From a virus, in IMG/VR virus record IMGVR_UViG_3300005753_000035, positions 1 to 43,449 of that record: a stretch of DNA of 43,449 nucleotides. One strand, written 5' to 3'. Shown here piece by piece: positions 3,506 to 41,648 of this stretch (the stretch's first letter is position 1; each line of letters starts with the position of its first letter). Made by a program: the position numbers and the translations under genes. The notes below the pieces were generated by a model. That model did not search any database, was not told where the DNA came from, and was given only the letters and a program-made list of their open reading frames with translations.

Positions 3506-3520
3506 TATAACATTGTTATA
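3506..3520. promoter_or_regulatory. Palindrome TATAACATTGTTATA, perfect copy
   Basis: Perfect 15-bp palindrome (7-bp arms, one central base) that fills the space between a weak SD (AAAGG, 3501-3505) and the ATG at 3521 of the large ejection protein. If it folds in mRNA (6-bp stem, 3-nt loop) it would draw the SD next to the ATG. It is one of eleven related sites in the genome. Confidence 0.7.
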
Positions 3521-6500
3521 ATGACTGATAAATTTAAAAATATACCTAATGATGAGTTCCTTCCACTAGTTGAAGAGGAAGAAGATATTCCTGTACCTGA
3601 AAAAGCTGCTAATCAAGAGTCATTCTATGTTACTGCATTAAATAACTCTGAAGACCCTGTAGTTGACTTCGTTAATACTCGTGAGAATTTAAGAGCTTTA
3701 GGTGAAGACCCTATATCCGCTAAGGTTAGGGAAAGGTTAGCTAGAGATTTAAATTTAGTTGAAGACTCAGTTATGATGAGAGAATCTGCACAAGCTACAG
3801 GTATTAAAAGAACTAATATTATATCGAACTTCATAAACCGTAGAACTATCCCTGCTGATGTGGACTTACAGCGTGAGTACATGACAGAGGCTGGTGTTAA
3901 TGCAACAAACACCAAGGATATTCTTAATGATGTACAGACTAATGCAATGGACGAGCATGAAAGAATACTAGAAGCTCGTGATAACATTAAAGAACAAATA
4001 ATAGATGTAGTTAATAACTTATCGTCTACTACTGGGCAGGCTGTTACAGATTTCTTAGGTAGTGTAGCACCATTCAATATGTCAAACACATATAGAGCTT
4101 TACTTGAAGGTCTACAGAAGAGAGGAACTTTAGGTGAAGGTTCTCCATCAGGAGCAATGGTATTAACTGGTGAAGCTTTAGAAATTATTAAAGATGAATT
4201 AAGAAAGTCTGACCCCACAGAGAAGAAAGCATTAGCTGCTGATATATTATCTATCATAGGTGATAACAGTGGACTACTAGCTAACAATGATATGATTAAG
4301 TTCTATATCATAAAGGAAGTCTTCCAAGAAATACAAGACCCTACTGCAGTAGAGAATTTTGATTGGGACAGGCTAATAGAGAATACTACAGGCATATTAG
4401 ATATAGTTATGCTTGGTCAGTTAGTTAAAGGTGCTGGTAGAATTATAGGTTCAATTGGTAGAGACACTCCTGCTGCTGCAGCTATAAGTGCAGACCCTTC
4501 CAAGGCTGCTAAGATTCTAGCAGGTGCAATTAAGTCAGAAGAACTAGCTAAAGCTGTTGGTACTACACCAACTGAAGTCTTATCTCATGCTGTATATCCC
4601 AAACCACTTAACTATGGAGACATACGTAGTGCTCCAGCTAATGTTGTGGATGAATTAAAAATAATTGAACAACAAGTTAAAGATGTGGTAGACTTAGCAG
4701 AGCCTATGTCTATCAACTTAACTACAGTGGAGCGTTCTAGTGCTTCAAACAATTGGTTAAAGGATTTAAACTTAAACTCTAGGTCACATCTATACACTAA
4801 CCTATCTGAAGTAGGTATTGAAGGTGAGAAGATTGTAGCTAAAGCTGTTTATGGTTTAGACGAGACACACGGATTCCCTAATGGATTCATGGCACATGAA
4901 CGTGCTATAGAATTAATGGGTTCATTTGGTAAATGGGATATACTAAAGAAACGTGGTGATGGTTTCGTTAAAACTAAGAATCTTTCTGGTAAGGGAGAGT
5001 TCTTCATAAAAACTACACATGAACGATTCTTTAGACCTGAAGATGCACTAATATTTGACCCTAAAGATATATACATTGGTGGAACTAAAGCTAAATTCTT
5101 AGGTGACCCATCATCTATATTTGCTAAGTGGTACAGTAATGCAGGTGCAGTATCTCATGACTTAGGAAAGTCTATTGAACACAGTCTATATAAAATTATT
5201 GATAAACCCTTTGTTAAACTTGGTGATGAATCCAAATTAAAGATAATTAACATGCTTGATGAAGGTAGCAAACGTGGTACACGTATTAACTACAAAGAAT
5301 TACTAGGTAGAGAGTTCTCAGAAACAGAAATAAATGGTATAAATAGTATGTATGGTTTGTCTGATGCTCTGTACTTCCTAAATAATAGACGGTACTTACA
5401 AGCTTTAGATAATAGTGGTATGAAAAAAATTGTGGGTTCTAGCTGGGAAGGATTAGGCAGACCAATTAAGGAAGATTTATCTATCTCAACAGTGTTTGAC
5501 CCATCTCTTAATGACGTGCGCTCTATAACACCCTTGGAAATTAAGAATCTTTATAAAGAAGGTGATACACTTATTCGATTAGCAGGTAGAGAGGGTACTA
5601 AGGATGTTAAAGCCACTGTAGCGATATCTAAGAAGTCAGACAAGACTAAAATAGAAGGATTGCCAGACCAAATACTTAATTATAGACCTGGTTATATTGC
5701 TAGATACTATAAAGATGAAGTATTTATTGATGAGATTAGCAATATCATTGTGGATGGTGTTAAGACTGAGAATAAACGTACTATCATAGCACTGGGTAAC
5801 AGAATACAAGCATCAAAGATAGCAGACAAGATGAATACTACTGCTGATGTAGGTGTTTCTTATGTTGCTCGGGTTGATAGAAAGATTACTGCAGAAGAAC
5901 GAACCAAAGCTATGATGGACATTGATAATGCTTGGGGTAGGTTATTCTTTAGTAAACGTGGTGAACAGTTACGTGGTCTCGAAGGTCTGGCAACTGTTGA
6001 TGACCCTATAGATGCTATTGTCCGTAACATTGGTACTACATCTAGGTCAGTATCTCATGAAGGATTCATTCAAACATCTAAGCAACGGTATATAAATACA
6101 TATGGTGACCTGTCATCTAATAAAGGTTTATATCCAAAGGATGCAAGTCAGATTGTAGGTTCAGGAGCACTAAAAGATAAAGATAGAATAGGTAAGGCTA
6201 TAGCTGTACATGACTACATTGGATTAATGGAAGGTGTACAACCAGTATCTGCAACTATGTGGAAAGGGTTTGTTAATAACCTAGCTGATACATTAGAGAA
6301 TGGTGCAGGTGGTTTCCGTGATGCTACTGCTACTAAGTTTCGTGGTGCTCAGAGAGACCCTATGCAATTAGCTCGTGGTGCTACATTCAATATGTTCCTT
6401 GCTGCTAACCCACTTAGACAAGCTATCTTACAGTCATCACAGTTTAGTTTTATTGCCTCATTAGAACCTAGATATGTTATGGGTGCTATTAAAGGTAAGG

Positions 6501-8128
6501 GATTTCTATCACAAAAATTAGGAATTGACTTAGGAATGGCATCGTCTACACGTCCAGAACTAGCTAAGAAATTAAACCCTATTGGTGCTAAACTTATGGG
6601 TGTTCCTGAAAAAGAATACCTAGAAATAGTACAGGACTTCCGTAATAGTGGTCTACCATTTAGTATTGATAGTCACTTATTTGTACGTGATGCAGTAATA
6701 GAACTATCAAAGAAAATAGAAGTCTCAATGGCTGGTAAAGTATCCAGACATCTAAGAGAGATACCAATTATTGCTCTACGTACAGCTAAGAAAGTGGGTT
6801 TTGATTTTGGTGAATACAATAACTTAGCATCAACATACTTACTAGCAAGACGTAGATACTTAGCTAGAGAAAGTAAGACTACAAAGAATCTAACAAGAGC
6901 AGACAAGTTAAATATTGGTGCAGAAGCTAGACAACTAGCATTATCTATGACTGAAGCAGGTAGCTTTGGTTATCAGAAAGGTGCATTTAGTTTAATGACA
7001 CAGTTCTACTCTATTCAACAAAAAGCTTTCTTAGCTGTGCTTCCTCAGAAATTAGGAGGTAACAAATTCTTTACTGCTCAAGAGAAATTACGTATAGGTC
7101 TAGGTCAAACTCTAATGTATGGTACTGCAGGGTTTGGACTCAAAGAAATATATGAGAAGAGCAGAGATTTCATGGGAGTAGAACCTAACCCTATAGTTGA
7201 TAAAGCTATCAAAGGTGGACTTGCAGATATAGTTCTCAATGCTTCAATAACAGCAGCCACAGGTGATGATACCAACTTAGTATTTGCTAATGACCTAGCA
7301 CCAGCATCAGGAACTATTAAAAGTGCAGGAGAATTGGTATTAGGCATATTCTCTGGTGGTACAGATGTAGCTGAACTAGCCTTTGGCCCATCATATGACG
7401 CTGGTGGAAGGCTCTGGAGAGCTGGTAAGATAACTAAGGATATCATGGTAGCACCAGATTTAAGCATCCCTGAACAGCTAACACGAGCTGTAAATAGCTC
7501 ACTAAGTGTCCTCTCAGGCTATAACAACTACCTCAAGGCCAGTGCTGCTAAGAATCTAGGATTCCATGTTAATAATAGTGGAGACCCGGTCGTTAAAGCA
7601 TCCTGGTCAGAGTCTATAGGACAAATGTTTGGTTTCCGTTCTAATGCCGTGGATGAATACTACAGAATGCAACAAAGTTTACACAGTTTTAATAGCAGTG
7701 GTGGTAAATCAGGTTCAGCAGACCACCTAAAAGAAATAGCTAAGCAGTACTATAAACGTATGAGTGCTATTGCTGCTAAATTCTCTAGTGAATCACCACA
7801 GAACCTAGATGATTTACAAATGAAAAGATTCAATGAAGCCATACGTACTGAAGCTATTATACTTAGCGTACTAGACCCTAACGATAGAGAGTTTGTTCTT
7901 AATGAATTCAGAAAACAACTATCTCGTGGTGTAGAAGTTAAGTCAGATAGATTAGTTAATGATATTGTACGTGCATCACTCAACGGTGACTATGGTAACC
8001 AAGTTGAAGGAATACTAACTCAATTGAAAAACTCAGGACTACTTAATACTCCAGAAGAACAGCAAGACATTAGAGACTTGTGGGATTATTTAACTAGTGA
8101 AGTTTTATTTGATAAGGAAGGTAATTAA
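3521..8128 (+). CDS. Large internal virion / DNA ejection protein (gp16-like position)
   Basis: 1535 aa, the largest gene. An acidic N-terminus (LVEEEEDIPVPE) is followed by long helical regions with many charged residues, several hydrophobic glycine-rich stretches (for example around IVMLGQLVKGAGRIIGSIG and the segment near residue 1200), and a helical C-terminus. Its size and its place between a gp14-like and a second large virion protein fit the ejection proteins that leave the capsid and span the host envelope. I saw no clear lytic transglycosylase signature at the N-terminus, unlike T7 gp16. The ATG is set by the palindrome-SD arrangement just upstream, and the stop overlaps the next ATG (TAATG). 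Confidence 0.75.
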   Translation: MTDKFKNIPNDEFLPLVEEEEDIPVPEKAANQESFYVTALNNSEDPVVDFVNTRENLRALGEDPISAKVRERLARDLNLVEDSVMMRESAQATGIKRTNIISNFINRRTIPADVDLQREYMTEAGVNATNTKDILNDVQTNAMDEHERILEARDNIKEQIIDVVNNLSSTTGQAVTDFLGSVAPFNMSNTYRALLEGLQKRGTLGEGSPSGAMVLTGEALEIIKDELRKSDPTEKKALAADILSIIGDNSGLLANNDMIKFYIIKEVFQEIQDPTAVENFDWDRLIENTTGILDIVMLGQLVKGAGRIIGSIGRDTPAAAAISADPSKAAKILAGAIKSEELAKAVGTTPTEVLSHAVYPKPLNYGDIRSAPANVVDELKIIEQQVKDVVDLAEPMSINLTTVERSSASNNWLKDLNLNSRSHLYTNLSEVGIEGEKIVAKAVYGLDETHGFPNGFMAHERAIELMGSFGKWDILKKRGDGFVKTKNLSGKGEFFIKTTHERFFRPEDALIFDPKDIYIGGTKAKFLGDPSSIFAKWYSNAGAVSHDLGKSIEHSLYKIIDKPFVKLGDESKLKIINMLDEGSKRGTRINYKELLGREFSETEINGINSMYGLSDALYFLNNRRYLQALDNSGMKKIVGSSWEGLGRPIKEDLSISTVFDPSLNDVRSITPLEIKNLYKEGDTLIRLAGREGTKDVKATVAISKKSDKTKIEGLPDQILNYRPGYIARYYKDEVFIDEISNIIVDGVKTENKRTIIALGNRIQASKIADKMNTTADVGVSYVARVDRKITAEERTKAMMDIDNAWGRLFFSKRGEQLRGLEGLATVDDPIDAIVRNIGTTSRSVSHEGFIQTSKQRYINTYGDLSSNKGLYPKDASQIVGSGALKDKDRIGKAIAVHDYIGLMEGVQPVSATMWKGFVNNLADTLENGAGGFRDATATKFRGAQRDPMQLARGATFNMFLAANPLRQAILQSSQFSFIASLEPRYVMGAIKGKGFLSQKLGIDLGMASSTRPELAKKLNPIGAKLMGVPEKEYLEIVQDFRNSGLPFSIDSHLFVRDAVIELSKKIEVSMAGKVSRHLREIPIIALRTAKKVGFDFGEYNNLASTYLLARRRYLARESKTTKNLTRADKLNIGAEARQLALSMTEAGSFGYQKGAFSLMTQFYSIQQKAFLAVLPQKLGGNKFFTAQEKLRIGLGQTLMYGTAGFGLKEIYEKSRDFMGVEPNPIVDKAIKGGLADIVLNASITAATGDDTNLVFANDLAPASGTIKSAGELVLGIFSGGTDVAELAFGPSYDAGGRLWRAGKITKDIMVAPDLSIPEQLTRAVNSSLSVLSGYNNYLKASAAKNLGFHVNNSGDPVVKASWSESIGQMFGFRSNAVDEYYRMQQSLHSFNSSGGKSGSADHLKEIAKQYYKRMSAIAAKFSSESPQNLDDLQMKRFNEAIRTEAIILSVLDPNDREFVLNEFRKQLSRGVEVKSDRLVNDIVRASLNGDYGNQVEGILTQLKNSGLLNTPEEQQDIRDLWDYLTSEVLFDKEGN

Positions 8129-10029
8129 TGGCTAAGAAATTTGTAGCAAACGTTCGTGAAGTAGCAGGTTCGACCTTCATACAGCCGTTTCAAACACCCA
8201 CAGACCCAGGCAATAATGCTCAGAGTGTTAAAGATATACTCAACATTGGACTACAGACATTTAAAGATGTTGAAAAGTCAAGGCTTAAATCTCAGTTAGA
8301 TAAAGAGACAGAAGAGTTTATTGGTACTGGCGAAATGAAAAGAGTAACTGGTGCTCTACAGCAAGAGTCTCAGTTACGTGAACAAACTGCAGGTCTTTTA
8401 GATTTAGAACAAGACAGAGCAGAGTTGAATAGAGGGGATTTAACCTCTGAAGAATTCATAGACCAGACATCTATAACTGCGCAAGAAGAACAGTTAATAC
8501 TTGGTGCAAAGAGAACTACTAACAAATTACATAATGCCTTCATTAAGGGTAGAATATCTGAGACTGAATTCAAGGCACGTACTGAAACTATTCTTAAAGG
8601 TTTTATTAATCGTGCCCCTGGATTAGCTAGTGAATTTAGACAAGTAGCTGCAGGTGTACTGGGGTTTGACCCTTCAGGAACTGCACTACAAGCAGCCTTT
8701 GATGCTGATTCTACTAGTTCTACAGTAGCTACAGCACAACGTAATAAGATTGCAGGGTTACTTATTGATGCAGGTATATATGATTCAAATAAATCTGCTG
8801 AAGATAACATATCAATGAATTGGCCTGCGTTTAGTAAAGTACTAACTGCTGAGAAGCAAGGTAACCTAGAGTATAATGCATGGAAGAAATCCAACGAAGT
8901 GGACGAGATAACTGACTTACAAATGCTTAGTCAATCTTCAATGGGACTACATATAAAAGCTTCTAATAACATAAATGACATTATAGGTACTAAATTTAAC
9001 ATTCTAACACAAACTGATATAGATAACATACCACTTCAACAACGTACTGCATTCATAGTACAGTTAGAAGCTGGTAAGTCTGCATTATTAACAGGTGCAA
9101 ATGCTACATATGATAAAGTATCAGACAAATCTAAGATATCCACAGTACTTAAAGGTACATTAGACCAGTACGATACTGCTATAACAATGTTACAAGGTAA
9201 AGTTACTGCTAATGTGTACCGTAATAGAGCTACTGCCAACCAACAACTAGCCCTTTCTGGTATAACAGCTAACCCGGATGATGCTAAATTAATGGCCTTC
9301 CTACAACTGTGGCCTAAAGGTGTGCCCCTTAGTGCTCGTGTTAGTAAGGGAGTACATGAAAGATTCAAACATATATATGATGCACTAAATACTAAAGGAA
9401 CTACGGACCCTTGGAAAGCTGTTACTCGTAATCAAACTGGTCAAGATGCTGTACAATCTCATAAGGATTTAAAGCAGAAGGTTCAAGAATCATGGAAGGT
9501 CATGCGTACTATGATGAATGATAATACTATAGATGATGACTCTGTATCTAAGATGGCTGAAATTATGCAGGGGTTTACATATGCATCATGGAAAGACCCA
9601 AGTGATATACAGCTTGAGTCTATGGATATGATATTTTCTGTTGCTAAAGACCCAGAATTTGCCAAGGTAGTTAAAGATAATGAATTACTACAAACTCAAA
9701 TGGCTATTAGTAGTGCAAATTATGTAGAGAGAACTCTCAATGGTTTAGGTAGTGAGATTAGTTTTGATAAGGATAAAGTATCTCTTGAACTTAATGATGG
9801 TTTTGTATCATTCAATACTAACGTGCCAGCTACAAATACAATGACACCAAGGCAGTTACGGGAATTAAATAATACATACGGTAATAGACTTAATAATGCT
9901 ATACGTAGCTTTGCACATATTAATGGTTCTACAGACTATAGAAAATCAGCAGCACAGTTATTAAAAGGTAACTCCCTGGGTAACCTCAATATAAAACTAA
10001 TCGGTAAAGATTCTGAGCTAATAAAATAA
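8128..10029 (+). CDS. Internal virion protein (gp15-like)
   Basis: 633 aa, starting at the ATG that overlaps the previous TAA (TAATG), with GGAAGG upstream. The sequence is mostly helical with coiled-coil-like charged stretches (DVEKSRLKSQLDKETEEF, residues about 48-65) and no transmembrane segment or enzyme motif. A protein of this size next to the giant ejection protein and directly before the lysis genes is the usual place of the second internal core protein (T7 gp15 class). The product is inferred from gene order. Confidence 0.68.
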   Translation: MAKKFVANVREVAGSTFIQPFQTPTDPGNNAQSVKDILNIGLQTFKDVEKSRLKSQLDKETEEFIGTGEMKRVTGALQQESQLREQTAGLLDLEQDRAELNRGDLTSEEFIDQTSITAQEEQLILGAKRTTNKLHNAFIKGRISETEFKARTETILKGFINRAPGLASEFRQVAAGVLGFDPSGTALQAAFDADSTSSTVATAQRNKIAGLLIDAGIYDSNKSAEDNISMNWPAFSKVLTAEKQGNLEYNAWKKSNEVDEITDLQMLSQSSMGLHIKASNNINDIIGTKFNILTQTDIDNIPLQQRTAFIVQLEAGKSALLTGANATYDKVSDKSKISTVLKGTLDQYDTAITMLQGKVTANVYRNRATANQQLALSGITANPDDAKLMAFLQLWPKGVPLSARVSKGVHERFKHIYDALNTKGTTDPWKAVTRNQTGQDAVQSHKDLKQKVQESWKVMRTMMNDNTIDDDSVSKMAEIMQGFTYASWKDPSDIQLESMDMIFSVAKDPEFAKVVKDNELLQTQMAISSANYVERTLNGLGSEISFDKDKVSLELNDGFVSFNTNVPATNTMTPRQLRELNNTYGNRLNNAIRSFAHINGSTDYRKSAAQLLKGNSLGNLNIKLIGKDSELIK

Positions 10030-10043
10030 TAAGGTAGGTAGTA

Positions 10044-10644: not shown

Positions 10645-10659
10645 TACTGGAGTATAGAT

Positions 10660-11658: not shown

Positions 11659-11701
11659 AATTATACAGCCCTCACAAAATGGAGGATTAATACTTTATCA
11701 T

Positions 11702-13490: not shown

Positions 13491-14258
13491 TTATTTACCT
13501 CTCTTTAAAAGATAATCTAAAGATAACTCCATAAGATTATAGTTACCATCAGCTACCTCATGTAGCATTAGGCATCCTCTGAAGTGCCCATTAGCTTGTG
13601 GCCCTTTATAGTCCTCATCATGCTGATAGAATGAACCAGCAACTAGAGCACGTATAGTCTGACCATTGGCTAGGGATTTAATAGCTGTATCTAGTCCTTG
13701 AACATGTCCTTGAACAAAACTAAAACCAACTTTATTTAGCTTAGTATGTGCTGTACCACCGTAAGGTCTTCCTGTTAGAGGCGCATAGAAGTAATGTGAG
13801 TATGCTATACCATCTATATTCACTATCTCTTTGAAGTCAAACACTTCCCATCCAAACTTCTTTAAGTCAAAGTCATCATATGATATAGTACCAGATAGTA
13901 ATGGATTAGCATTAATATGACGCATAATACGTTCTTCATGGTTACCTATTAAGAAGACCATACGAGGCTTGTACTGCCTTAGCTTAGTCTTTCTAAGTGC
14001 AACATTAAGTGCCTGTATAGGCTCCATAAACAACTCCATAGCGCTCTTACCTACCTTTATATCATTGTTATAACGTGCCCCTTCTGCTTTCTTTGTTGAC
14101 CTATCATAACTGCTTAAACTGTGCATGTCAAAGAAGTCACCTAGACATATGATAACATCTGGTCTCTTATCTACCACGTAATTACCTGCTGCAGTTAGAT
14201 GGTCTGTATCCACATCAGGTCTAACCTGACAATCCGGCATTACAAAATGTTTAGTCAT
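13491..14258 (-). CDS. Calcineurin-like metallophosphoesterase
   Basis: 255 aa with the metallophosphoesterase motifs: first ligands in MPDCQVRPD (D9), GDFFD (40-44), GNHEER (105-110), SHYF and GHVQG in the C-terminal half. The first motif is DxQ rather than DxH, as in many phage members. It would hydrolyse phospho-mono- or diesters with Mn2+/Ni2+. It lies immediately upstream of the RNA ligase. In bacterial Pnkp a metallophosphoesterase 2',3'-phosphatase domain is followed by a ligase domain, so end healing is a reasonable hypothesis, not shown. Good SD (GAGAAGAGG). Confidence 0.85.
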   Translation of the reverse strand: MTKHFVMPDCQVRPDVDTDHLTAAGNYVVDKRPDVIICLGDFFDMHSLSSYDRSTKKAEGARYNNDIKVGKSAMELFMEPIQALNVALRKTKLRQYKPRMVFLIGNHEERIMRHINANPLLSGTISYDDFDLKKFGWEVFDFKEIVNIDGIAYSHYFYAPLTGRPYGGTAHTKLNKVGFSFVQGHVQGLDTAIKSLANGQTIRALVAGSFYQHDEDYKGPQANGHFRGCLMLHEVADGNYNLMELSLDYLLKRGK

Positions 14259-16531: not shown

Positions 16532-16546
16532 TATAACAATGTTATA
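16532..16546. promoter_or_regulatory. Palindrome TATAACAATGTTATA, perfect copy
   Basis: Perfect 15-bp palindrome between the 61-aa gene (it covers its stop codon) and the 42-aa gene. On the - strand it abuts the SD: ...GTTATAAGGAG then ATG. It is of the same type as the sites at 3506, 22293, 27017 and 41634. Confidence 0.72.
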
Positions 16547-17708: not shown

Positions 17709-18581
17709 TTATACTTCAAACACTTTCATGTTCGCCCAGGTTTTACCTACCTTGATTTCTACATTTAAGGGCAGATTAAAATCTATATCAAAAACTCTCT
17801 TCAACATATCTGGTGCATCCTCCATCACCTGTTTAACTAAACTTCCTATACTATAGACCATAGTATCTTGCATGTCAAGTAATATTGAATCATGAACTGT
17901 ATTAATTAATTTTACAGTATCATGATAAGGAACTACTGCATGGTATACCTCACCCAATACCATTGGGACTATATCCCCTGTTGCAAATCCCTGCACTGGG
18001 TAGTTCTTTATTTGTGTTGGACTAAAGTTAACTGGCTCACCCCAGCCATTAGTTACTTTATAGAACGGGTTATCATATTCATTGAACACATAGCGTCTAC
18101 CTGTTTTTGTACACAAGGTGGACTTTCCTACAGGAAATCCTGTAGGACTACTATTTCCTGTAGGCTTACGAAGACCTGCTATTGCTCTTATATGATAATC
18201 CTGGTACACCTTAACTTTAGGGTATCTTGCATAATATAAATCAATAAACTCTTGACATATACTCTGTAGTATGTCTAATGCTACAGACATGCTCTTAGCG
18301 CCTGCACCATATTGTAATTGAAAAGACAGAGTCTTTGCTATTCTTCTTTGACTCTTAGTTACATCGCACTCAGGTACTCTAAATAACTGTGCTGCTCTCA
18401 TAATGTGTAGGTCTTTACCACTTAATAAATCTGATATTAGAATTTCATCAGCAGTTAAATGAGCAAGTACAAATATTTCTAGTTGCGAGTAATCAACCTC
18501 CATTAAAATACCACTGGAACCAAACCTAGAGCCAAAGCATTCTCTAATATCATATGTCATTAGGATTAAAAACTTCGTCAT
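17709..18581 (-). CDS. Family A DNA polymerase, C-terminal (palm/fingers) part of a split gene
   Basis: 290 aa from ATG 18581, or 283 aa from ATG 18560 which overlaps the preceding stop more closely. Polymerase motif A DYSQLE (from D30), motif B RRIAKTLSFQLQYG (R79/R80, K83, Y91) and motif C VHDS (H230, D231) are all intact, so the catalytic palm and fingers are complete. The N-terminal exonuclease and thumb lie in 18765-19994. The sequence begins where the other piece stops: YDIRECFGSRFG corresponds to the residues that normally follow NLQNxxxKGxx. The two products presumably assemble into one replicase. Confidence 0.9.
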   Translation of the reverse strand: MTKFLILMTYDIRECFGSRFGSSGILMEVDYSQLEIFVLAHLTADEILISDLLSGKDLHIMRAAQLFRVPECDVTKSQRRIAKTLSFQLQYGAGAKSMSVALDILQSICQEFIDLYYARYPKVKVYQDYHIRAIAGLRKPTGNSSPTGFPVGKSTLCTKTGRRYVFNEYDNPFYKVTNGWGEPVNFSPTQIKNYPVQGFATGDIVPMVLGEVYHAVVPYHDTVKLINTVHDSILLDMQDTMVYSIGSLVKQVMEDAPDMLKRVFDIDFNLPLNVEIKVGKTWANMKVFEV

Positions 18582-18762
18582 CTTGTGGTATATCTATACA
18601 GACCCTTATAACTTTGTTATTAACTGCTGACTGTATTATAACTTCATTAAACTTATTGTACTCTATCATTGAGTATGCTACAAGAAATAAATTTGCTATA
18701 GCCTGTTGTGATTCATTATCTTTGTCAGACAACTCTATCTTCTGTACTCTGTTATCTTCCAT
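18550..18762 (-). CDS. Unknown 70-aa ORF inserted between the two polymerase halves
   Basis: ATG 18762 follows AAGGGAG (the last codons of the polymerase N-part) and lies just past its TGA; an in-frame TTG at 18768 is less likely. The 70-aa product MEDNRVQKIELSDKDNESQQ... has a central helix (AIANLFLVAYSMIEYNKF), a beta segment (VIIQSAVNNKVIRVCIDIPQ) and an acidic end. No nuclease motif (HNH, GIY-YIG, LAGLIDADG) is visible, so it is not an evident homing endonuclease. Its stop overlaps the polymerase C-part start region, so all three are one coupled unit. Confidence 0.62.
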   Translation of the reverse strand: MEDNRVQKIELSDKDNESQQAIANLFLVAYSMIEYNKFNEVIIQSAVNNKVIRVCIDIPQDDEVFNPNDI

Positions 18763-18764
18763 TA

Positions 18765-19994
18765 TCAATCTCCCTTGTTAGTTACGTTCTGTAAGTTTGG
18801 TTTACTACTGCTTAATCTTCCTGTAGCAGTGGCTGTATGGTTTAATCCTTGGTGTATACAGGAATCAGTAGGCCATGTTAGATTGCTATAACCTACAAAA
18901 TAAGTGTTTCGTTGTTTACTTAGCTTTCGATATTCTAATATAGCAGAAATAAAAGTTTCTGCATCTTTACCTGGTGTATCTGAAAGGATATCATTAAGTA
19001 CATTATCAGATACTGAAACATTTCCCTTGTCAGACTTCCACTTCTCTAAAATAGGAATTTCAAAACCTTTAATATTTATTGTTTTAAGTATCATTCTAGT
19101 TTTAATTTCTCCTTTTCTTTTACCTGTCTTGTATCTAACAACTGCCCCTAATTTATCAAGAACATCCTCCTTACTAGGTACCTTTATATCTCCACCAAAC
19201 AACACAAGACTAACTTGTTTTACACTATTAGGATTAAAGTCAAAGGAGATAGGCAGACCTAAAAACTTGATTGATTTTTCTAGAACAGTCTGTAATACAG
19301 TTAAATCCGTATCTATCTCATCTGCTATATTTATAGCCATATTTCTATTGAAGTGCATACCATTATATTCCATTTCAATAGTACATTTTAATGCATCCAT
19401 CTGTGTTAGAATTAGTGGTAGCATACCAATCCTGTCAGCTTCTTGAAGTTGCTTATTAAATACTAGATGTGTATTCATTACATCATCTTGAAGATATGGT
19501 AGTAGTAATTCTGAATCTATATCTTCCGTCTGCATACCTGCATCCCACATATCTTTTATAACATCATTCTTTTGTGTACCTCCATACTTTTTAGATAACG
19601 CATTAAGGCTTGCATACTGGTGCTCTTGACCTGTTAATAAGTACTCAGCTAATTGTGTGTCCCATATCTGGATTCTTGGAAATACTTCATACTGAAAGTC
19701 CACAACAGACTTAAAAATGTGGTGCATATCAAACTTAATATTCTGTCCTACCCACAGCTTAGGTATTTCATTATCTGTATTTTCTAAAATTATATGGCTA
19801 AGTTCATCATACACATAGGAATGATGATAATTAAGACGTTTGTTTAACGCTCCAGTAACTACTATTCTGTTTTCTGGATGAAATGCTGATGCTTTGTTCT
19901 TACCAATAGCATCATTACCAACATTTCTTATGGTAGTCTCAATATCAATTACTAGGTAGTCATCTGTGAATTTAAACTTACTAGCGCTCATCAT
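18765..19994 (-). CDS. Family A DNA polymerase, N-terminal part (3'-5' exonuclease and thumb)
   Basis: 409 aa. DEDDy exonuclease motifs are present: DYLVIDIETT (D17, E19), GQNIKFDMHH and LLPYLQDDVMNT (YxxxD). The thumb region follows and the protein ends with TATGRLSSSKPNLQNVTNKGD and a TGA stop, exactly before motif A of a Pol I-type enzyme. The rest is encoded at 17709-18581. The split falls in a loop and almost no polymerase residue seems lost. SD GGAGG precedes ATG 19994 (or 19991), and the start overlaps the previous gene. Confidence 0.9.
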   Translation of the reverse strand: MMSASKFKFTDDYLVIDIETTIRNVGNDAIGKNKASAFHPENRIVVTGALNKRLNYHHSYVYDELSHIILENTDNEIPKLWVGQNIKFDMHHIFKSVVDFQYEVFPRIQIWDTQLAEYLLTGQEHQYASLNALSKKYGGTQKNDVIKDMWDAGMQTEDIDSELLLPYLQDDVMNTHLVFNKQLQEADRIGMLPLILTQMDALKCTIEMEYNGMHFNRNMAINIADEIDTDLTVLQTVLEKSIKFLGLPISFDFNPNSVKQVSLVLFGGDIKVPSKEDVLDKLGAVVRYKTGKRKGEIKTRMILKTINIKGFEIPILEKWKSDKGNVSVSDNVLNDILSDTPGKDAETFISAILEYRKLSKQRNTYFVGYSNLTWPTDSCIHQGLNHTATATGRLSSSKPNLQNVTNKGD

Positions 19995-23347: not shown

Positions 23348-23531
23348 AAGTACTGTCCTTTATAACAAATGACTTACTAGTACTATACAGCCACTCACAT
23401 TGTTTAATATTATTATCTATACAGAACTCCATAGCATTATAATTACTCTCAAAAATATTTACTAACTCTTGAGAACTTGGTATTCCTTTACTATTTACAC
23501 AGTACCTGTAAACTACATACACACTATTCAT
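23337..23531 (-). CDS. Unknown 64-aa protein
   Basis: ATG 23531 lies six bases after a strong SD (GAGGAGG); the ATG three bases earlier and a TTG are too close to that SD. Product: MNSVYVVYRYCVNSKGIPSSQELVNIFESNYNAMEFCIDN.... Alpha/beta pattern with three cysteines. Overlaps both neighbours. Function unknown. Confidence 0.6.
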   Translation of the reverse strand: MNSVYVVYRYCVNSKGIPSSQELVNIFESNYNAMEFCIDNNIKQCEWLYSTSKSFVIKDSTYDN

Positions 23532-23679
23532 CATCAACCTCCTCTATTACTATAGTTATATCTGGATTCTTAAGAATAGTATCTAACTTAGACTTGACAC
23601 CTGCTGCTTCCCCATATGATTCACATACATCTAACATAACATTGCTATAACCTTTACTTATTAATTCTACGTACCACAT
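23524..23679 (-). CDS. Unknown 51-aa protein
   Basis: The frame is open further up, but ATG 23679 has the SD (GGAGG, seven bases upstream) and gives MWYVELISKGYSNVMLDVCESYGEAAGVKSKLDTILKNP..., a typical small alpha/beta peptide with an acidic end. The longer start would overlap the upstream gene. No family was recognised. Confidence 0.6.
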   Translation of the reverse strand: MWYVELISKGYSNVMLDVCESYGEAAGVKSKLDTILKNPDITIVIEEVDDE

Positions 23680-25034: not shown

Positions 25035-25262
25035 TTATGATGATGAGTGGGTTACTTGTAACATTGCTCGACCGTCAGCAATCAAACGACCTGTAGTTCT
25101 TGAGGGTGTATCTGAGTTACGACATCTAGCCATTCCTTGACCAATTATATTTCCTGCAGTATCAAATACTTTAGTAATGGTTACATATCTACTATTCAAT
25201 CTCTGTGCTCTGCTCGAATTTCCTGGGTGTAAATGTGTACGTGTTATGTATAAATTTTTCAT
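25035..25262 (-). CDS. Small basic protein between the VWA and AAA+ genes, 75 aa
   Basis: MKNLYITRTHLHPGNSSRAQRLNSRYVTITKVFDTAGNIIGQGMARCRNSDTPSRTTGRLIADGRAMLQV.... Basic, beta-rich (SRYVTITKVFDTAGNIIGQG), with a helix GRLIADGRAML. SD TAGGAG; a palindrome copy (25278-25292) lies just upstream. Its place within the VWA/AAA+ unit suggests a third partner or target adaptor, which is inference. Confidence 0.6.
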   Translation of the reverse strand: MKNLYITRTHLHPGNSSRAQRLNSRYVTITKVFDTAGNIIGQGMARCRNSDTPSRTTGRLIADGRAMLQVTHSSS

Positions 25263-25277: not shown

Positions 25278-25292
25278 AATAACAATGTTATA
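25278..25292. promoter_or_regulatory. Palindrome, near-perfect copy (AATAACAATGTTATA)
   Basis: One mismatch to TATAACAWTGTTATA. It covers the stop of the VWA gene and precedes the SD of the 75-aa gene on the - strand (...GTTATTAACTAGGAG). Confidence 0.6.
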
Positions 25293-27024
25293 GTCTTATA
25301 ATCTTAGTTTTAATTACATCAAGTAAGGCTTCTTCCAACTCTTCAGGTTTATTTATTACTTGATGGTCTTTGTACAAATCCATTACGGCATCACTTTTTA
25401 TACCTATTCCATATATTTCAATTGAACTTTCATCTTGTATGTATTGAATAACTTGTTTAGTATGACTATAAGCACCACGCCTATCACTATTAGGTTGGCC
25501 ATCACTAAGTACTATTAATATCTTGCGCTTATTCTTTTGTGCTGCCAGCCTATGATATGCAAATTGTATTGCTTCTCCATCAGCATTCTGCCCCATCATA
25601 TCACTACCATTTGAGAAGTCATTAACTAACCACTCAGGTGTAGTTCTGGAGTTAAAAGTTTTATATATACATAACACACTTTTGCCAAGTGCTTCAGTAA
25701 ATCCTAGTATCTCCAAGGGTATCTTAAGTGGTGATATAGCCTCATTTAACATAATACATGAGTGTACCATATATATATATTTTTTACCTCTCATACTGCC
25801 TGACATATCACCCAGTACTGTGACTGCTGTATCAAGCATATCATTTTCAGTACGTTGACTGAATACTTTCTCTCCGTATCTGCCACTATCAGGTATGGAC
25901 ATGCGGTATAAAGCTTTGCCGTTAATCTTACCTTTCTTTTTGCCATGTATACGCTTGGATTTACTACGTATCTGTAGTAGTCTGCGTACAGTAGATGATA
26001 GACCTTTACCTAAGGTCTTGATATTATTAAGATCTTCTCTGTGTTGTCTAGCGTAGTGTCCATATGTATCCTCGTGATTACCACTATAGTATGGTATCTG
26101 CTTAACGTCTTCAGCTCTAAATTGATACTCATCATCAGACACATCATACTCTATCTCTAATCCTGCATAGGTAGCTTGATTTTTATCATCACTAGTGTGC
26201 ATGTGCTTAAGTATATCAGAGTACTTAACCCTTGCATCCTCCTTGCTGTCTACTCTTTTACCTTCACCTTCAACGCTCTTACCCTTACCAGATTCCCCTT
26301 CTTCCTCATCACTATCATCACCAGAATCTTGGGATTTCTTTTCTTCCTCATCTGAATTCATTTCAAAGACTTCATCAAGTGCCAGCTTCCATTTATCATA
26401 TACATCAAATGCTGTGTTAAGCGGTGGTGGTTGTACTTGATATCTGTCTTCATTATTCAGTAGTTTATTAACCCATGTCTGCTGTTCATCATCAAGCATA
26501 TTAAATATTTGTTTGCCTTGTCCTATAAGAGAATGCTGCCAGACCTCTCGACATATTATATCAAAGCACAGCATAGACTCTATGATTCTTCGCTCTTTAT
26601 TCTTAGAAATCCCAAGTTTTTTACTTTTAATTATTGCTTCAATACTATAACAGTTACTAGATTCTAATGCACTGTCTCTACCATAGTACTCACCTTTCTT
26701 AAAGATTTCTATCCTATAGTCCTCAAGTAAATTTATACCGAAGCCAAAAAAACTGTCCATGTTTAATTTCTTGTCTCTTGCCATAACAAAAGCATCACGA
26801 GTCTCTGGATAGTTATGACTTATTTCATGGTACAGTGAACCCCACCATTTTATGAACTGATCTTTACTCCACGATGTGTGAGGATTACCGACAACTATAG
26901 TACTTCCATTAGTATGTGGAACCTTAAGACTGTCACGAAACTCTACATTTAATTTGGTATTAGCTGCGAGTACCCTGACAAACTTCTTTATACCTCCGAT
27001 ATCTACCATTTGTTTGTATAACAT
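25288..27024 (-). CDS. VWA-domain protein with N-terminal HExxH (CobT / DUF2201-like)
   Basis: 578 aa from ATG 27024 (SD TAGGAG ten bases upstream; earlier in-frame codons are hydrophobic and overlap the next gene). N-terminal region: SLYHEISHNYPE, an HExxH motif at 66-70, with LLEDYRIE about 30 residues later as a possible third ligand, as in zincin-like domains that precede VWA domains in DUF2201-type and phage CobT-like proteins. A long acidic linker (about 255-280, rich in D, E, S, G) leads to a VWA domain: VLGDMSGSM (MIDAS DxSxS, about 405-412) and VLSDGQPNSD. It is likely the partner of the CobS-like ATPase. Peptidase activity is possible but unproven. Confidence 0.82.
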   Translation of the reverse strand: MLYKQMVDIGGIKKFVRVLAANTKLNVEFRDSLKVPHTNGSTIVVGNPHTSWSKDQFIKWWGSLYHEISHNYPETRDAFVMARDKKLNMDSFFGFGINLLEDYRIEIFKKGEYYGRDSALESSNCYSIEAIIKSKKLGISKNKERRIIESMLCFDIICREVWQHSLIGQGKQIFNMLDDEQQTWVNKLLNNEDRYQVQPPPLNTAFDVYDKWKLALDEVFEMNSDEEEKKSQDSGDDSDEEEGESGKGKSVEGEGKRVDSKEDARVKYSDILKHMHTSDDKNQATYAGLEIEYDVSDDEYQFRAEDVKQIPYYSGNHEDTYGHYARQHREDLNNIKTLGKGLSSTVRRLLQIRSKSKRIHGKKKGKINGKALYRMSIPDSGRYGEKVFSQRTENDMLDTAVTVLGDMSGSMRGKKYIYMVHSCIMLNEAISPLKIPLEILGFTEALGKSVLCIYKTFNSRTTPEWLVNDFSNGSDMMGQNADGEAIQFAYHRLAAQKNKRKILIVLSDGQPNSDRRGAYSHTKQVIQYIQDESSIEIYGIGIKSDAVMDLYKDHQVINKPEELEEALLDVIKTKIIRL

Positions 27025-27031
27025 TGTTATA
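27017..27031. promoter_or_regulatory. Palindrome TATAACAATGTTATA, perfect copy over a start codon
   Basis: The central ATG of this copy is the start codon of the VWA gene (27024): SD TAGGAG, then CTTATAACAATGTTATAC. A protein bound here, or a hairpin in the mRNA, would block initiation directly. Confidence 0.68.
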
Positions 27032-28327: not shown

Positions 28328-28534
28328 TTACTCCTTATGTTTAGTAAACCATGTATATGAATACTCTGGGGGATTAAGACCTAAACAATGTATGTATTGT
28401 TCCTGTGTTTTACCACATTTTTTACATGTTCTAGTTGCATTTATACTAGGTATACCAACAAGTTTACTAGTTGAATTAGGATATTTAGCATCAGTATTTG
28501 TATAACTGTGTATATTAATTTTACATAAATTCAT
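28328..28534 (-). CDS. Small zinc-knuckle-like protein, 68 aa
   Basis: ATG 28534 with a strong SD (AAGGAG) gives MNLCKINIHSYTNTDAKYPN..., with CKKCGKTQEQYIH at 37 onward, half of a zinc ribbon, and early Cys4/His9 that could complete it. Directly upstream is a palindrome copy and the 78-bp leader repeat. Function unknown. Confidence 0.6.
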   Translation of the reverse strand: MNLCKINIHSYTNTDAKYPNSTSKLVGIPSINATRTCKKCGKTQEQYIHCLGLNPPEYSYTWFTKHKE

Positions 28535-28555: not shown

Positions 28556-28633
28556 AATAACATTGTTATAAGCTCTACACATTAGAACCTATAAGAATAT
28601 TTTTATACCTCGTCACCTCTCTAGGTAATACAG
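28556..28633. repeat. Leader repeat A, copy 1, beginning with a palindrome copy
   Basis: 78-bp segment repeated without gaps at 29076-29153, about 80% identical by eye. It contains a near-perfect palindrome (AATAACATTGTTATA, 28556-28570), then AGCTCTA, an exactly shared AT block (28591-28609, ATAAGAATATTTTTATACC) and CTARGTAATACAG. Each copy lies about 20 bp upstream of a - strand gene start (28534 and 29057), so it is probably a duplicated promoter/leader. The gap 28535-28714 otherwise shows no gene. Confidence 0.75.
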
Positions 28634-28657
28634 TTACCCGTTCCAAGTTCACATCAT
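28634..28657. repeat. 24-bp exact direct repeat B, copy 1
   Basis: Identical over 24 bp to 29341-29364; contains TTACCCGTTCCAAG followed by TTCACATCAT. Here it directly follows leader repeat A; the second copy lies about 190 bp from the second leader. Exact conservation in non-coding DNA suggests a protein-binding site. Confidence 0.75.
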
Positions 28658-28714: not shown

Positions 28715-28861
28715 TCACACCTCACAAAAACTATAGTAATATACTTCTGGAATTGTTTCTATTAGTTGTTTGACAGCATCAGCACAAGTGGTGGCCTCGC
28801 ATAAGAAATCTTTAAGTACAGCAGAATCATCATCGCAGTATTTAATCTTATATGTCTTCAT
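28715..28861 (-). CDS. Small unknown protein, 48 aa
   Basis: ATG 28861 with SD AGGTG, overlapping the end of the 69-aa gene by 14 nt. Product MKTYKIKYCDDDSAVLKDFL... followed by CEATTCADAVKQLIETIPEV: a beta strand followed by a helix, four cysteines. No family was recognised. Confidence 0.52.
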   Translation of the reverse strand: MKTYKIKYCDDDSAVLKDFLCEATTCADAVKQLIETIPEVYYYSFCEV

Positions 28862-29057
28862 TACTTACACCTAGTATATTGTTAAGTATTAATTCATAAT
28901 CAGATTCAGAGATAACCTTTGAATTTATTATATATTTATGTAGTGATTTATCAGTGTTCAGAATACACCCACCACTGCAGAATTTTGCGGAATCCTTCGT
29001 GCAGCACTCACGATTCTTCCACATATACATGCATAAATCATTTCTTAGAATAGACAT
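28848..29057 (-). CDS. Cysteine-rich small protein, 69 aa, paralogue of 27988-28233
   Basis: MSILRNDLCMYMWKNRECCTKDSAKFCSGGCILNTDKSLHKYIINSKVISESDYELILNNIL.... Six cysteines in the first 31 residues. It shares LRNDLC and the VIS-x-x-D-x-x-LI segment with the 81-aa protein, so the pair arose by duplication. ATG 29057; SD-like AAAGG; leader repeat A copy 2 lies just upstream. Confidence 0.62.
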   Translation of the reverse strand: MSILRNDLCMYMWKNRECCTKDSAKFCSGGCILNTDKSLHKYIINSKVISESDYELILNNILGVSNEDI

Positions 29058-29075: not shown

Positions 29076-29153
29076 TGTAACATTGTTATAAGCTCTAAGT
29101 ATACAAGCTCATAAGAATATTTTTATACCGCGTTACTTTTCTAAGTAATACAG
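29076..29153. repeat. Leader repeat A, copy 2, beginning with a palindrome copy
   Basis: Second copy of the 78-bp segment at 28556-28633, exactly 520 bp away. The palindrome at its left end (29076-29090, TGTAACATTGTTATA) has one mismatch. It lies 18 bp upstream of the ATG of the 69-aa gene. Confidence 0.75.
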
Positions 29154-29340
29154 TGCGAATCTCCCTCAACACTAGCGGTACTAAGTTGATGGCTGTCACC
29201 CTTCACAGGAGCCAAAGACCTAGATTAATATGGTAGTCCATAGTTATACTATCATAATATGTATTGGAGTAATATAATACTCACATTCTACATGCCTATG
29301 TGATAGCCTTATCTACTAACTAACCTATAAAGATAGTCCT

Positions 29341-29364
29341 TTACCCGTTCCAAGTTCACATCAT
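29341..29364. repeat. 24-bp exact direct repeat B, copy 2
   Basis: Same 24 bp as 28634-28657, in the same orientation. In the first copy it directly adjoins leader repeat A, but here a 187-bp segment lies between them, so one unit has gained or lost sequence. Confidence 0.75.
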
Positions 29365-29460: not shown

Positions 29461-29495
29461 GATAGTACCTTATAACATTGCTATAAGATACTATA
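29461..29495. promoter_or_regulatory. Long imperfect inverted repeat around a palindrome copy
   Basis: Arms GATAGTACCTTATA and TATAAGATACTATA (two mismatches) flank ACATTGC. The core TATAACATTGCTATA (29471-29485) is a one-mismatch copy of the genome-wide palindrome. It lies just downstream (- strand) of the 149-aa gene stop, so it may act as operator or as a transcript end. Confidence 0.5.
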
Positions 29496-29509: not shown

Positions 29510-29959
29510 CTAAGCAGCCTTTACAGCACCTGGAATAATCCTAGTCATAAGTCTAGTAACATCACTAGCTAGGCCAATACAGACCTGTGAAGTCTCTTCG
29601 TTCTTGACAGCTGTCTTAAACTTAGCTACCGCTTGAAGTAATTCATCTTTCTTTGTGTCACGTTTAGCTGTCACGATATAACAGGATATACTATCAGCTA
29701 CACTGAGCTTAATACCTACCTTAACAGTAATACCTGTAGACTCTTGACTAAATTTACCTGTTTCACGTTGTAGACCTGCATTGATAGACTTGATTTTATT
29801 TTCATCAATCAAACTTTCATCAAATAGATATTGTATATCAGTCTCAAGCTTATCCATCTCAGCACCTAACTCTCTAGCACTTTCGATTAACTCTCGTGCT
29901 ATTGTAGAGATAGCCCTTTCACCATTTAAAAAAGCAGTGATTTGCTCTGCATAATTCAT
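29510..29959 (-). CDS. Unknown 149-aa early protein
   Basis: MNYAEQITAFLNGERAISTIARELIESARELGAEMDKLETDIQYLF...; helical N-terminal half, a beta segment (STGITVKVGIKLSVADSISCYIV), then a helical end. SD GTGAGG before ATG 29959, with a palindrome copy 25 bp further up. Second gene of the leftward arm, so early expression is likely. No family was recognised. Confidence 0.68.
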   Translation of the reverse strand: MNYAEQITAFLNGERAISTIARELIESARELGAEMDKLETDIQYLFDESLIDENKIKSINAGLQRETGKFSQESTGITVKVGIKLSVADSISCYIVTAKRDTKKDELLQAVAKFKTAVKNEETSQVCIGLASDVTRLMTRIIPGAVKAA

Positions 29960-29983: not shown

Positions 29984-29998
29984 AATAACTATGTTATA
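29984..29998. promoter_or_regulatory. Palindrome, diverged copy (AATAACTATGTTATA)
   Basis: Two mismatches to TATAACAWTGTTATA. On the - strand it is followed by TTATTAACTTTT, then the SD and ATG 29959, an arrangement much like the site at 25278. Confidence 0.45.
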
Positions 29999-30816: not shown

Positions 30817-30831
30817 CATAACAATGTTATA
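30817..30831. promoter_or_regulatory. Palindrome, near-perfect copy (CATAACAATGTTATA)
   Basis: One mismatch to TATAACAWTGTTATA. Followed by ATATAATAA; a related string, GTTATAATATAATAA, also occurs at about 30770-30784. Lies 160 bp upstream of the regulator promoter. Confidence 0.55.
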
Positions 30832-30990: not shown

Positions 30991-31019
30991 TTGACTATTA
31001 TAAATCAATATGCTATAGT
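30991..31019 (+). promoter_or_regulatory. Sigma70-type promoter of the HTH regulator
   Basis: TTGACT (30991-30996), 17-bp spacer, TATAGT (31014-31019): near-consensus. It lies 30 bp upstream of ATG 31049, which has its own SD (AAGGAATAATA). Implies expression by host RNA polymerase early in infection. Confidence 0.75.
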
Positions 31020-31048: not shown

Positions 31049-31351
31049 ATGTCAGTAAGTTTAACAACAATAAATACTATAACAGAAATGAAGAAAGAAC
31101 TGTTTACTCAAAAAGATATAGCAGAGTTACTAAATATATCAGAGTCTACAGTATCAAGAGTACTATCAGAGAAGACTGGTAAGAAACAACGAGCTATAGC
31201 AGATAGAATGGAGTACTTCATGGGTGGAGCTATCAAAGGTACTGGTTGCTATGAGAATGGTAGGGAGATAATAGAATTCACAGATATAACTTATGAAGAA
31301 GCATCCTTAGCAGAAATGCTAGAGAATATAGAAACAATCAAAGACTTGTAA
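31049..31351 (+). CDS. Helix-turn-helix transcriptional regulator
   Basis: 100 aa. Residues about 20-41, TQKDIAELLNISESTVSRVLS, form a clear HTH of the LacI/Cro/phage-regulator type, followed by KKQRAIADRMEYFMGG and an acidic C-terminus (EEASLAEMLENIETIKDL) that may mediate dimerisation. It is the only recognised DNA-binding regulator in the genome, has its own strong promoter, and lies between the two arms. It is therefore the prime candidate to bind the recurring palindrome, or the palindromes in its own control region (inference). An inverted repeat TTGTAA/TTACAA overlaps its stop. Confidence 0.78.
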   Translation: MSVSLTTINTITEMKKELFTQKDIAELLNISESTVSRVLSEKTGKKQRAIADRMEYFMGGAIKGTGCYENGREIIEFTDITYEEASLAEMLENIETIKDL

Positions 31352-36352: not shown

Positions 36353-36368
36353 GAATGTAAAGGATACT

Positions 36369-36431
36369 ATGCATTCAACAGTTCTTAAATTAAAACTTAA
36401 ATATGGTAAAGCTACTAGGGGTAGACAATAA
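36369..36431 (+). CDS. Possible 20-aa basic peptide
   Basis: ATG 36369 with AAAGGA five bases upstream; 20 codons rich in Lys, Leu and Arg (MHSTVLKLKLKYGKATRGRQ), stop overlapping the next ATG (TAATG). It may mainly couple translation of the following gene. Confidence 0.38.
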   Translation: MHSTVLKLKLKYGKATRGRQ

Positions 36432-36970: not shown

Positions 36971-36980
36971 CACATAAGTT

Positions 36981-39209: not shown

Positions 39210-39214
39210 AGGTT

Positions 39215-39490: not shown

Positions 39491-39517
39491 TTAGCTAACC
39501 AAGCTTAGGAGAATATA

Positions 39518-40210: not shown

Positions 40211-40229
40211 TTAATATGAGGATTTAAAA

Positions 40230-41177: not shown

Positions 41178-41190
41178 GAGGTAATTTAAA

Positions 41191-41631
41191 ATGAGTTTTG
41201 AAATTGTAAATGGTGTACGTCAACACTACAATGCACGAGACATTGAAGAAAGTGAAGTTGGAAGTACTAAAATGTACGGGCATGAGAAAGAATTAGTTCT
41301 TACTTTTGCAGGGGATACTTATACAGCTGTGTCTGAAGTTATTCCCCTTGGTGCACGTATTATGAGTGTACTTATTGAAGTTAAAGAGGCATTTGTACTT
41401 ACAGGAACTGCACCTACTATTAATTTAGGGGGTGTTGCAGGTACTGATAGTATCTTTGAACTGTCTGAGGCTAATGCTGAAGCTGTTGGTAGCTACGTAG
41501 GTGTTTTAGCAGGAACATATGCTGTACCTTTGGCTGCTGCTTTAACTGCTACTGTAACTTTAGGTGGTACAGCACCTACTATTACTTCTGCAGGACAAGC
41601 TAAAGTAATCATACGTTATATTGATGCATAA
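41191..41631 (+). CDS. Head decoration-like protein, 146 aa
   Basis: SD AAGAGGTAATTT before ATG 41191, 13 bp after the capsid stop. The product is beta-rich with a repeated motif (TGTAPTINLGG and LGGTAPTITSAG) typical of small capsid-associated proteins. The end of the gene is followed by a palindrome copy and a strong hairpin, so it is probably co-expressed with capsid at a high level. The role is inferred from position. Confidence 0.62.
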   Translation: MSFEIVNGVRQHYNARDIEESEVGSTKMYGHEKELVLTFAGDTYTAVSEVIPLGARIMSVLIEVKEAFVLTGTAPTINLGGVAGTDSIFELSEANAEAVGSYVGVLAGTYAVPLAAALTATVTLGGTAPTITSAGQAKVIIRYIDA

Positions 41632-41633
41632 GA

Positions 41634-41648
41634 TATAACATTGTTATA
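41634..41648. promoter_or_regulatory. Palindrome TATAACATTGTTATA, perfect copy
   Basis: Perfect copy three bases after the decoration gene stop (41631) and directly adjoining the terminator-like hairpin at 41648-41698, upstream of the 180-aa gene. A + strand, late-operon example of the family. Confidence 0.72.

Follow-up and report, generated by a model that had tools for sequence, protein, structure and literature searches.

Temperate mycobacteriophages of cluster A, such as L5 and Bxb1, carry stoperators, which the available parts of two papers describe as many short sites dispersed in short intergenic spaces, 13 bp long, asymmetric, oriented with transcription and bound by a monomeric repressor of the temperate phage, with a sequence that is lineage-specific and some copies lying in real promoters (PMC6550527, PMC9283540). 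For lytic phages, intergenic repeats in T1-like phages such as TLS were likened by the authors to stoperators, according to the available part of that description (PMC11447400). The present analysis concerns a further set of dispersed sites, namely the copies of a 15-bp palindrome with 7-1-7 symmetry, TATAACAWTGTTATA, in IMG/VR virus record IMGVR_UViG_3300005753_000035, a complete virus record of 43,449 bases considered over its whole length (the window). Judging from sequence comparison, this palindrome would be, with a probability of roughly 0.6, a cis-acting DNA operator for a sequence-specific regulator of two-fold symmetry, i.e. a dimeric one. In open-access papers, no literature on TATAACAWTGTTATA or on such sites in Zobellviridae was found, the sequence strings matching one yeast paper alone.

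The set of TATAACAWTGTTATA sites is real, not a product of chance, and broader than listed in an earlier reading of the same letters (the original prediction). Copies at up to 0, 1 and 2 mismatches number 5, 13 and 16, for expected means of 0, 0.05 and 0.7 and maxima of 0, 1 and 3 in 60 order-3 Markov sequences, which bears out the claim that a given 15-mer should occur well under once by chance (exact copies, 5 vs 0 in the 60 sequences). At up to three mismatches, 22 copies stand against 7.3 in shuffles, a count reached by none of 100 shuffles, and the absence of enrichment over shuffled genomes, named beforehand as a ground for refutation, thus did not materialise. The weight-matrix scan proposed at the time returned 16 window sites at 14 bits or more vs 0.2 expected, with the reservation that the position weight matrix was built from the 13 sites at up to one mismatch, so that tested sites are also training sites. 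Searching the window de novo for repeated near-palindromes placed the TATAACAWTGTTATA family far over shuffles (15-mers, 14 vs 3-4) and gave no second palindrome family. Outside the 15-mer conservation declines, T/A being preferred immediately outside. All five perfect copies of the original prediction (3506, 16532, 22293, 27017, 41634) and all six near copies were recovered, the latter with one mismatch apart from 29984 with two; missing from its list were the one-mismatch copies at 9180, 14058 and 21183, in genes, and the two-mismatch copies at 18607 and 23635, overlapping open reading frames (ORFs). The sites, dispersed over the genome and clustering in the early region, are as follows, together with the gene that starts at one of them (aa, amino acids; nt, nucleotides):

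3506-3520, exact copy, abutting the ATG (3521) of a 1535-aa internal virion protein
9180-9194, one mismatch, within gene 8128-10029
14058-14072, one mismatch, within the metallophosphoesterase gene
16532-16546, exact copy, abutting the AGGAG of a small minus-strand gene, with a stable stem-loop just 5' of the site
18607-18621, two mismatches, within the small ORF 18550-18762 (minus strand), 33 nt before the second DNA polymerase ORF, 17709-18581 (minus strand)
21183-21197, one mismatch, within the helicase gene
22293-22307, exact copy, within the primase gene, read in frame as Y-N-N-V-I
23635-23649, two mismatches, within the small ORF 23524-23679 (minus strand)
25278-25292, one mismatch, before gene 25035-25262 (minus strand)
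27017-27031, exact copy, holding the likely cobT start codon (ATG picked by the gene caller)
25288-27024, minus strand, the cobT-like gene whose start bears the preceding exact copy
28556-28570, one mismatch, closing one copy of a duplicated leader module ahead of gene 28328-28534 (minus strand)
29076-29090, one mismatch, closing the other copy of the leader module, ahead of gene 28848-29057 (minus strand)
29471-29485, one mismatch, in a non-coding stretch, nearest start 421 nt off, flanks extending the pairing
29984-29998, two mismatches, before gene 29510-29959 (minus strand)
30817-30831, one mismatch, in the principal non-coding control region, which separates the two arms
41634-41648, exact copy, 78 nt from the start at 41719, with the stop of 41191-41631 on its other side

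Regarding placement, gene starts were chosen by Shine-Dalgarno (SD) score and near-start was taken as -5 to 60 nt before the called start. On this basis six of the 13 sites at up to one mismatch are near-start vs 10.6% of qualifying positions, i.e. the enrichment near starts that had been anticipated; the claim that most copies lie close to a start codon holds for these six and does not for 29471 and 41634, at the distances just listed. About half of the better copies stand close before a gene start, beside an SD sequence, and the palindrome at 27017 does contain the ATG called for cobT, as had been noticed. The intergenic share of the window is 8.7% by the same gene calls, and seven of the 13 sites have their centre there, 30817 being counted as genic solely through a doubtful 45-aa ORF. 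That ten of eleven copies lie between genes or at their edges is correct for the original list, where only 22293 is deep in a gene, and does not extend to the full set, in which four of 13 are in genes (9180, 14058, 21183, 22293).

As far as the available parts of PMC6550527 and PMC9283540 describe them, stoperators resemble these sites in several respects: at least ten short dispersed sites are present (16 in the window at up to two mismatches, 16 at up to one in a relative, G001), the site sequence varies by lineage (motifs of two other records, G015 and G016, vs TATAACAWTGTTATA), and some sites are promoter operators. An intergenic bias is less clear-cut here, with seven of 13 sites intergenic, six near-start and four in genes in the window, and 9/16 intergenic and 7/16 near-start in G001. 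Unlike stoperators, as described in those same parts, TATAACAWTGTTATA is a symmetric palindrome and not an asymmetric oriented site, neither an integrase nor such a repressor was found in the window, and some copies are in genes. The window sites may work like stoperators; since asymmetry, monomeric repressor and lysogeny are not shared, they are not classed as such. TLS-type repeats differ as well, being direct, with ATAGCAC and TAAAA ends, and not palindromes as in the window, in the part of PMC11447400 that was available.

From its gene content, the window phage is taken to be a CobS/CobT podophage without integrase, kin of Zobellviridae, with terminase, portal, capsid and replication genes homologous to those of that family by sequence identity rather than by a tree. 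Its terminase shares 54-60% aa identity with those of Lentibacter, Celeribacter and Roseobacter phages and about 57% with Methylophilales phages MEP401/402, the Zobellviridae ICBM3, ICBM2, P12053L, CRP-5 and SIO1 being among these relatives. A PHROG scan of 30 window proteins recovered terminase, head-tail adaptor, capsid and internal virion proteins, as well as DNA polymerase (two ORFs), helicase, primase, CobS-like and CobT-like proteins. No integrase was found among these 30 proteins or in the Pfam families listed for 44 window ORFs (25 of 36), and no cognate immunity repressor of the temperate kind was found in the window, only a 100-aa helix-turn-helix (HTH) protein encoded from 31049. 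Late genes occupy the plus strand, early and replication genes the minus strand, and the 31049 gene is surrounded by largely non-coding control DNA (about 30.3-32.0 kb), between the two arms. As already pointed out by the original prediction, no RNA polymerase gene is present among the 30 proteins scanned, and something must therefore time the genes of this phage.

The same letters recur in G001 (50,020 bases), whose identity to the window is 49% for terminase, 51% for portal, 40% for capsid and 35% over 245 aa for CobT. It holds 12 exact and four one-mismatch sites (reversed-pattern control 0), of which seven of 16 precede starts (P 0.001) and nine are intergenic in a genome 96% coding, with the order palindrome, SD, ATG at several of them. 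G020 (37 kb) has cobT and two early genes in common with the window, its virion genes bearing almost no similarity to those of the window and one 22% capsid match to G001; it carries 11 sites at up to one mismatch (control 0), six of them near-start (P 0.0003), one of the six resting on a doubtful ORF. On this evidence the sites appear to be associated with the early cobT module and not with the virion.

Other relatives carry different palindromes according to a de novo scan. The G015 motif is TTGATAACNGTTATCAA, with 12 sites at up to two mismatches (control 0); at locus L301 all nine sites lie 23-58 nt before starts (P 6e-9), L299, L300 and L301 having identical sites and being counted once, and over 40 kb of the record 10/12 are before starts, the other two being in larger genes. 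In G016 the motif is TTCTAANTANTTAGAA, with 10 sites at up to one mismatch. An upstream test on 31 genomes or loci was clearly passed by the window, G001 and G015, weakly by L227 and L230, and by G016 only via a different 14-mer. The position before cobT links these lineages: from the palindrome end to the cobT start there are 13 nt in G001 and 15 nt in G020, both with TATAACAWTGTTATA, 23 nt in G016 with TTCTAANTANTTAGAA and 101 nt in G021, the starts in G020 (TTG) and G021 (GTG) being the gene caller's choice. Relatives with conserved genes and no palindrome at the same places, which had been put forward as a refutation, were found in part, nine named relatives lacking the family.

Beyond these relatives, scanning IMG/VR for the exact 15-mer gave at least 119 loci. 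More than one copy occurred in 15 of the 119 loci listed, vs 0/120 listed for a permuted palindrome of the same composition, and sites before an SD and start made up 56/163 vs 11/120 of the matches listed. A further scan for the palindrome with AGGAG gave 13 stretches, seven of them new, among which L439 led to G021 and L444 to G020, while L440-L443 and L445 encode proteins 50-100% identical to those of a T7-like group, i.e. contigs with T7-like primase and polymerase genes. This group carries dispersed TATAACAWTGTTATA conserved letter for letter: between L112 and L106, two orthologous sites agree in 15/15 letters, their flanks matching at 76/120 and 98/120 positions (63% and 82%), in contigs that, it should be kept in mind, were selected for holding the palindrome. 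In one L112-L048 pair the central base alone changed, from A to T, and further orthologous pairs occur among L112, L083, L048, L108 and L106. That the palindrome is a functionless repeat, spread by copying or mutation bias, is scarcely credible in this light, orthologous sites being kept while flanks change, flanks being unrelated at other copies, and other letters standing at the same place before cobT in another lineage; what such a repeat would account for is that some copies lie in duplicated stretches (a 77-nt module, 82% identical) and that three in-gene copies may be a coding coincidence, since three of the four in-gene window copies encode Tyr-Asn-Asn-Asp/Val-Ile in frame. The claim of the original prediction that the palindromes are unrecognised regulatory sites is accordingly supported on comparative grounds, since the palindrome recurs in other phages, orthologous sites are conserved and relatives carry other palindromes instead.

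In temperate AT-rich contigs with integrase, as seen in G012, the palindrome comes directly after TTGACA, in 38 IMG/VR stretches over the whole collection, and TATAAC stands 3 bp further on, at the -10 place, in 25 of 32 distinct viral contexts. Among the matches listed, such TTGACA-adjacent sites amounted to 17/163 vs 0/120 for the permuted palindrome. Operators of the tetO or lambda type overlap a sigma70 promoter, and the temperate-contig palindromes are similar in occupying the spacer of a TTGACA promoter and frequently its -10 as well; the window sites are unlike them in having no -35 box, -35 and -10 hexamers at the site being found in temperate contigs and not in the window. Two-fold symmetry, letters kept while flanks change and promoter overlap elsewhere together point to a dimeric DNA-binding protein.

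The same promoter overlap bears on another reading, in which the palindrome belongs to a core promoter that requires no -35, recognised by the host RNA polymerase together with an alternative factor or one from the phage, and starting transcription at each downstream gene. In its favour, the TATAAC half can be the -10 of a TTGACA promoter in the temperate group, -35 scores exceed shuffles in L112 (3.3 vs 2.4) and L048 (3.7 vs 2.4), with three sites each, and the palindrome is closely preceded by the end of a stable hairpin in G020 (29627, 30237), G001 (7275), G016 (27471) and L197 (15108), so that a start after the hairpin would be useful. Upstream hairpins are slightly stronger at 42 near-start sites than at 288 control starts (P 0.035), a few having terminator-like T-runs, and such hairpins shortly before some sites leave room for a promoter role. 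This reading is nevertheless unlikely: no -35 boxes above shuffle level accompany the sites in the window, G001 or G015, and the scores against shuffles are 2.5/2.6 in the window, 2.1/2.4 in G001, 2.3/2.5 in G015 and 2.0/2.6 in L197; two-fold symmetry, in-gene copies and the start codon inside the motif at 27017 also speak against it. A promoter-like DNA query against named phages matched only at E-values of 0.4 or worse.

Could the element act as RNA instead, a small hairpin next to the ribosome binding site setting translation or cleavage? The position beside SD sequences and a 6-bp stem with a 3-nt loop would fit, and within the surrounding sequence the stem probably forms at 27017 and 29471 and is roughly half-formed at 16532. 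The fold of the 15-mer, however, reaches only -0.9 kcal/mol, the stem is unlikely at the other seven of 10 window sites tested, and of 102 stem pairs in window variants 21 are broken and two compensatory, bearing in mind that variants were picked by letters, which disfavours compensatory pairs. With no Rfam match at gathering score in the window and the promoter overlap of sites in other phages, an mRNA hairpin, one of the options of the original prediction, appears very improbable.

A host regulator was another of its options and may be the binder. In one reading the sites would mainly be decoys titrating such a protein, or would import host control, the near-start position being secondary. 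The same 15-mer does occur in several phage groups (zobellvirus kin, G020/G021, T7-like, temperate) in which no common regulator was detected, and in-gene copies would serve equally well as decoys. The recurrent placement close before cobT and before SD sequences makes this reading quite improbable, together with the scan of a species-genome collection, which covered the TTGACA plus palindrome form only and gave one match, in a genome holding one exact copy only.

To return to the dimeric regulator, two phage proteins were considered as the binder, namely:

31049-31351, plus strand, 100-aa HTH protein (P0001)
29510-29959, minus strand, 149-aa early protein, tentatively a member of a family found beside palindromes in several carriers, a candidate regulator on a weak basis

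The HTH protein, named as a possible binder by the original prediction, is not supported in that role, no homologue being found in other palindrome carriers: none appeared in an IMG/VR search nor among 23,017 distinct ORFs, including those of G001, G020, G021 and the T7-like and temperate members, the best non-self match being a 50-aa ORF of L148 at an E-value of 0.07. Its gene has a sigma70-like promoter of its own (30991-31019, TTGACT-17-TATAGT, with TG before the second hexamer), and the 200 nt upstream of its start codon hold no palindrome at up to one mismatch. An AlphaFold model with a predicted local distance difference test score (pLDDT) of 46 was not used.

The 149-aa protein (29510-29959) is tentatively proposed as candidate regulator from sequence resemblance. 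Early proteins of 140-168 aa look alike in the window, G020, the T7-like group, G015 and G016, and the T7-like family alone ranks the G020 member 1/14, the G016 one 1/31 and the G015 one 3/33, the window one being among three tied top of 27, ranks that are biased as the proteins were first chosen by eye. Aligning the T7-like family with the window/G020 pair by hhalign gave an E-value of 0.005 and a probability of only 7%. A predicted model of this type of protein (pLDDT 67) had no PDB or BFVD match at an E-value below 0.1. Of the candidates rejected along the way, the L214-type members of a widened family resemble the terminase small subunit by eye, and a match of the G020 member to an RNA polymerase domain (E-value 0.0014, under the curated cut-off) was taken as chance.

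In temperate contigs, similar sites are bordered by a gene for a 79-81-aa LexA-like winged HTH protein. LexA boxes thus offer another comparison: the temperate records G008 and G012 (2/2) encode a LexA_DNA_bind winged HTH domain beside similar sites, unlike the window, G001 and the T7-like record G004, where no LexA-type domain was found (0/3). As a separate observation, in AT-rich integrase phages the winged HTH gene adjoins a divergent region that contains several palindrome-like sites (L193 18113-18180, L195 13142-13210, L198 6702-6770).

A dimeric regulator of this kind would bind the palindromes dispersed over the genome, and the bound protein would block RNA polymerase at gene boundaries, as a roadblock or in a stoperator-like manner, as well as at nearby promoters. 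Many genes would thereby be switched together, presumably setting their timing, by a binder either phage-encoded (the 29510-29959 protein or the HTH protein from 31049) or supplied by the host. A change of letters from lineage to lineage in a dispersed operator set is an indication of regulator-operator co-evolution, a phenomenon known mainly from temperate mycobacteriophages; and if it is true that unrelated phages share an operator, cross-repression between them is predicted. A wider and rather doubtful proposal is that CobS/CobT phages and sharers of their early module possess a genome-wide, symmetric stoperator-like system, in which a fast-diverging regulator, perhaps of the 149-aa family (tentatively placed next to the sites of five lineages), recognises the palindromes particular to each lineage at gene boundaries and times early genes, and whose operator code would have spread across unrelated marine phages, so that co-infecting or resident phages could silence one another.

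Several results weigh against the dimeric operator. The four in-gene copies of the window do so because a block there would cut the gene's own transcript, and in G016 only four of 10 TTCTAANTANTTAGAA sites are before starts, three being within the cobT, primase and helicase genes, and the motif did not stand out in the upstream-only test. Among 142 zobellvirus/CobT loci, many of them fragments, exact copies occur only in two loci of G001, and exact TATAACAWTGTTATA was found in 0/33 loci obtained via the terminase. Nine named relatives, ICP2 and eight others, are without the TATAACAWTGTTATA family, so that the function is not a general one; ICP2, which of the named kin found is nearest to G001, has no TATAACAWTGTTATA at up to two mismatches, and none of eight of the nine, SIO1 not being included, passed the upstream test. 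Once contigs sharing proteins are merged, the excess of SD-start sites drops to 13/60 vs 7/61 clusters of the matches listed, and the IMG/VR excess therefore rests on few groups. Besides, no DNA-binding protein common to the carriers was found: Pfam gave no HTH family in 63 G001, 77 G015/G016 and 8 G020 ORFs, larger ORFs being left out; small ORFs of the window, G001, G015 and G016 compared with 151 loci yielded no common protein recognised as DNA-binding; and the 149-aa protein is without a clear relative in G001.

Some other palindromes were encountered in the surrounding phages. Named phages hold a small excess of them, namely TGTTATAGTATAACA in ICBM3 (3 vs at most 2) and AT-repeats in ctOsX528. 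Similar palindromes of TGTGTTATTATTAACACA type occur at L038 7288 (ICBM3), L042 34003 (P12053L) and L044 1543 (SIO1), with a copy between the terminase gene and its neighbour in ICBM3 and P12053L, and TGTTATA-N-TATAACA, the same half-site in opposite order, at L039 42042 (MEP401) and L038 40340 (ICBM3), which we take to resemble a Zur box. Palindromes of TGTTACTAGTAACA type in CobT loci exceed shuffles and were not counted as the same system, being often in genes (near-start, L214 2/9, L230 4/8, L211 3/7, L203 0/7, L252 1/11); those of TGTTMYTARKAACA type recur in several CobT phage loci (L203-L230, L252), often within genes; and a GGTTTCGACGTCGAAACT-type palindrome has 7-8 copies in L246 (3711, 13845, 18920), a phage contig of 50% GC.

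In the window itself, a tRNA search gave none. The DNA polymerase occupies two ORFs (17709-18581 and 18765-19994), as likewise annotated in MEP401, MEP402, CRP-5 and ICBM2. The duplicated 77-nt module mentioned above (28558-28634 and 29078-29154), with a GGTATAAAAATATTCTTAT core and the palindrome at its end, precedes two early genes, and the non-coding early region holds an exact 24-nt repeat, TTACCCGTTCCAAGTTCACATCAT, at 28634-28657 and 29341-29364.

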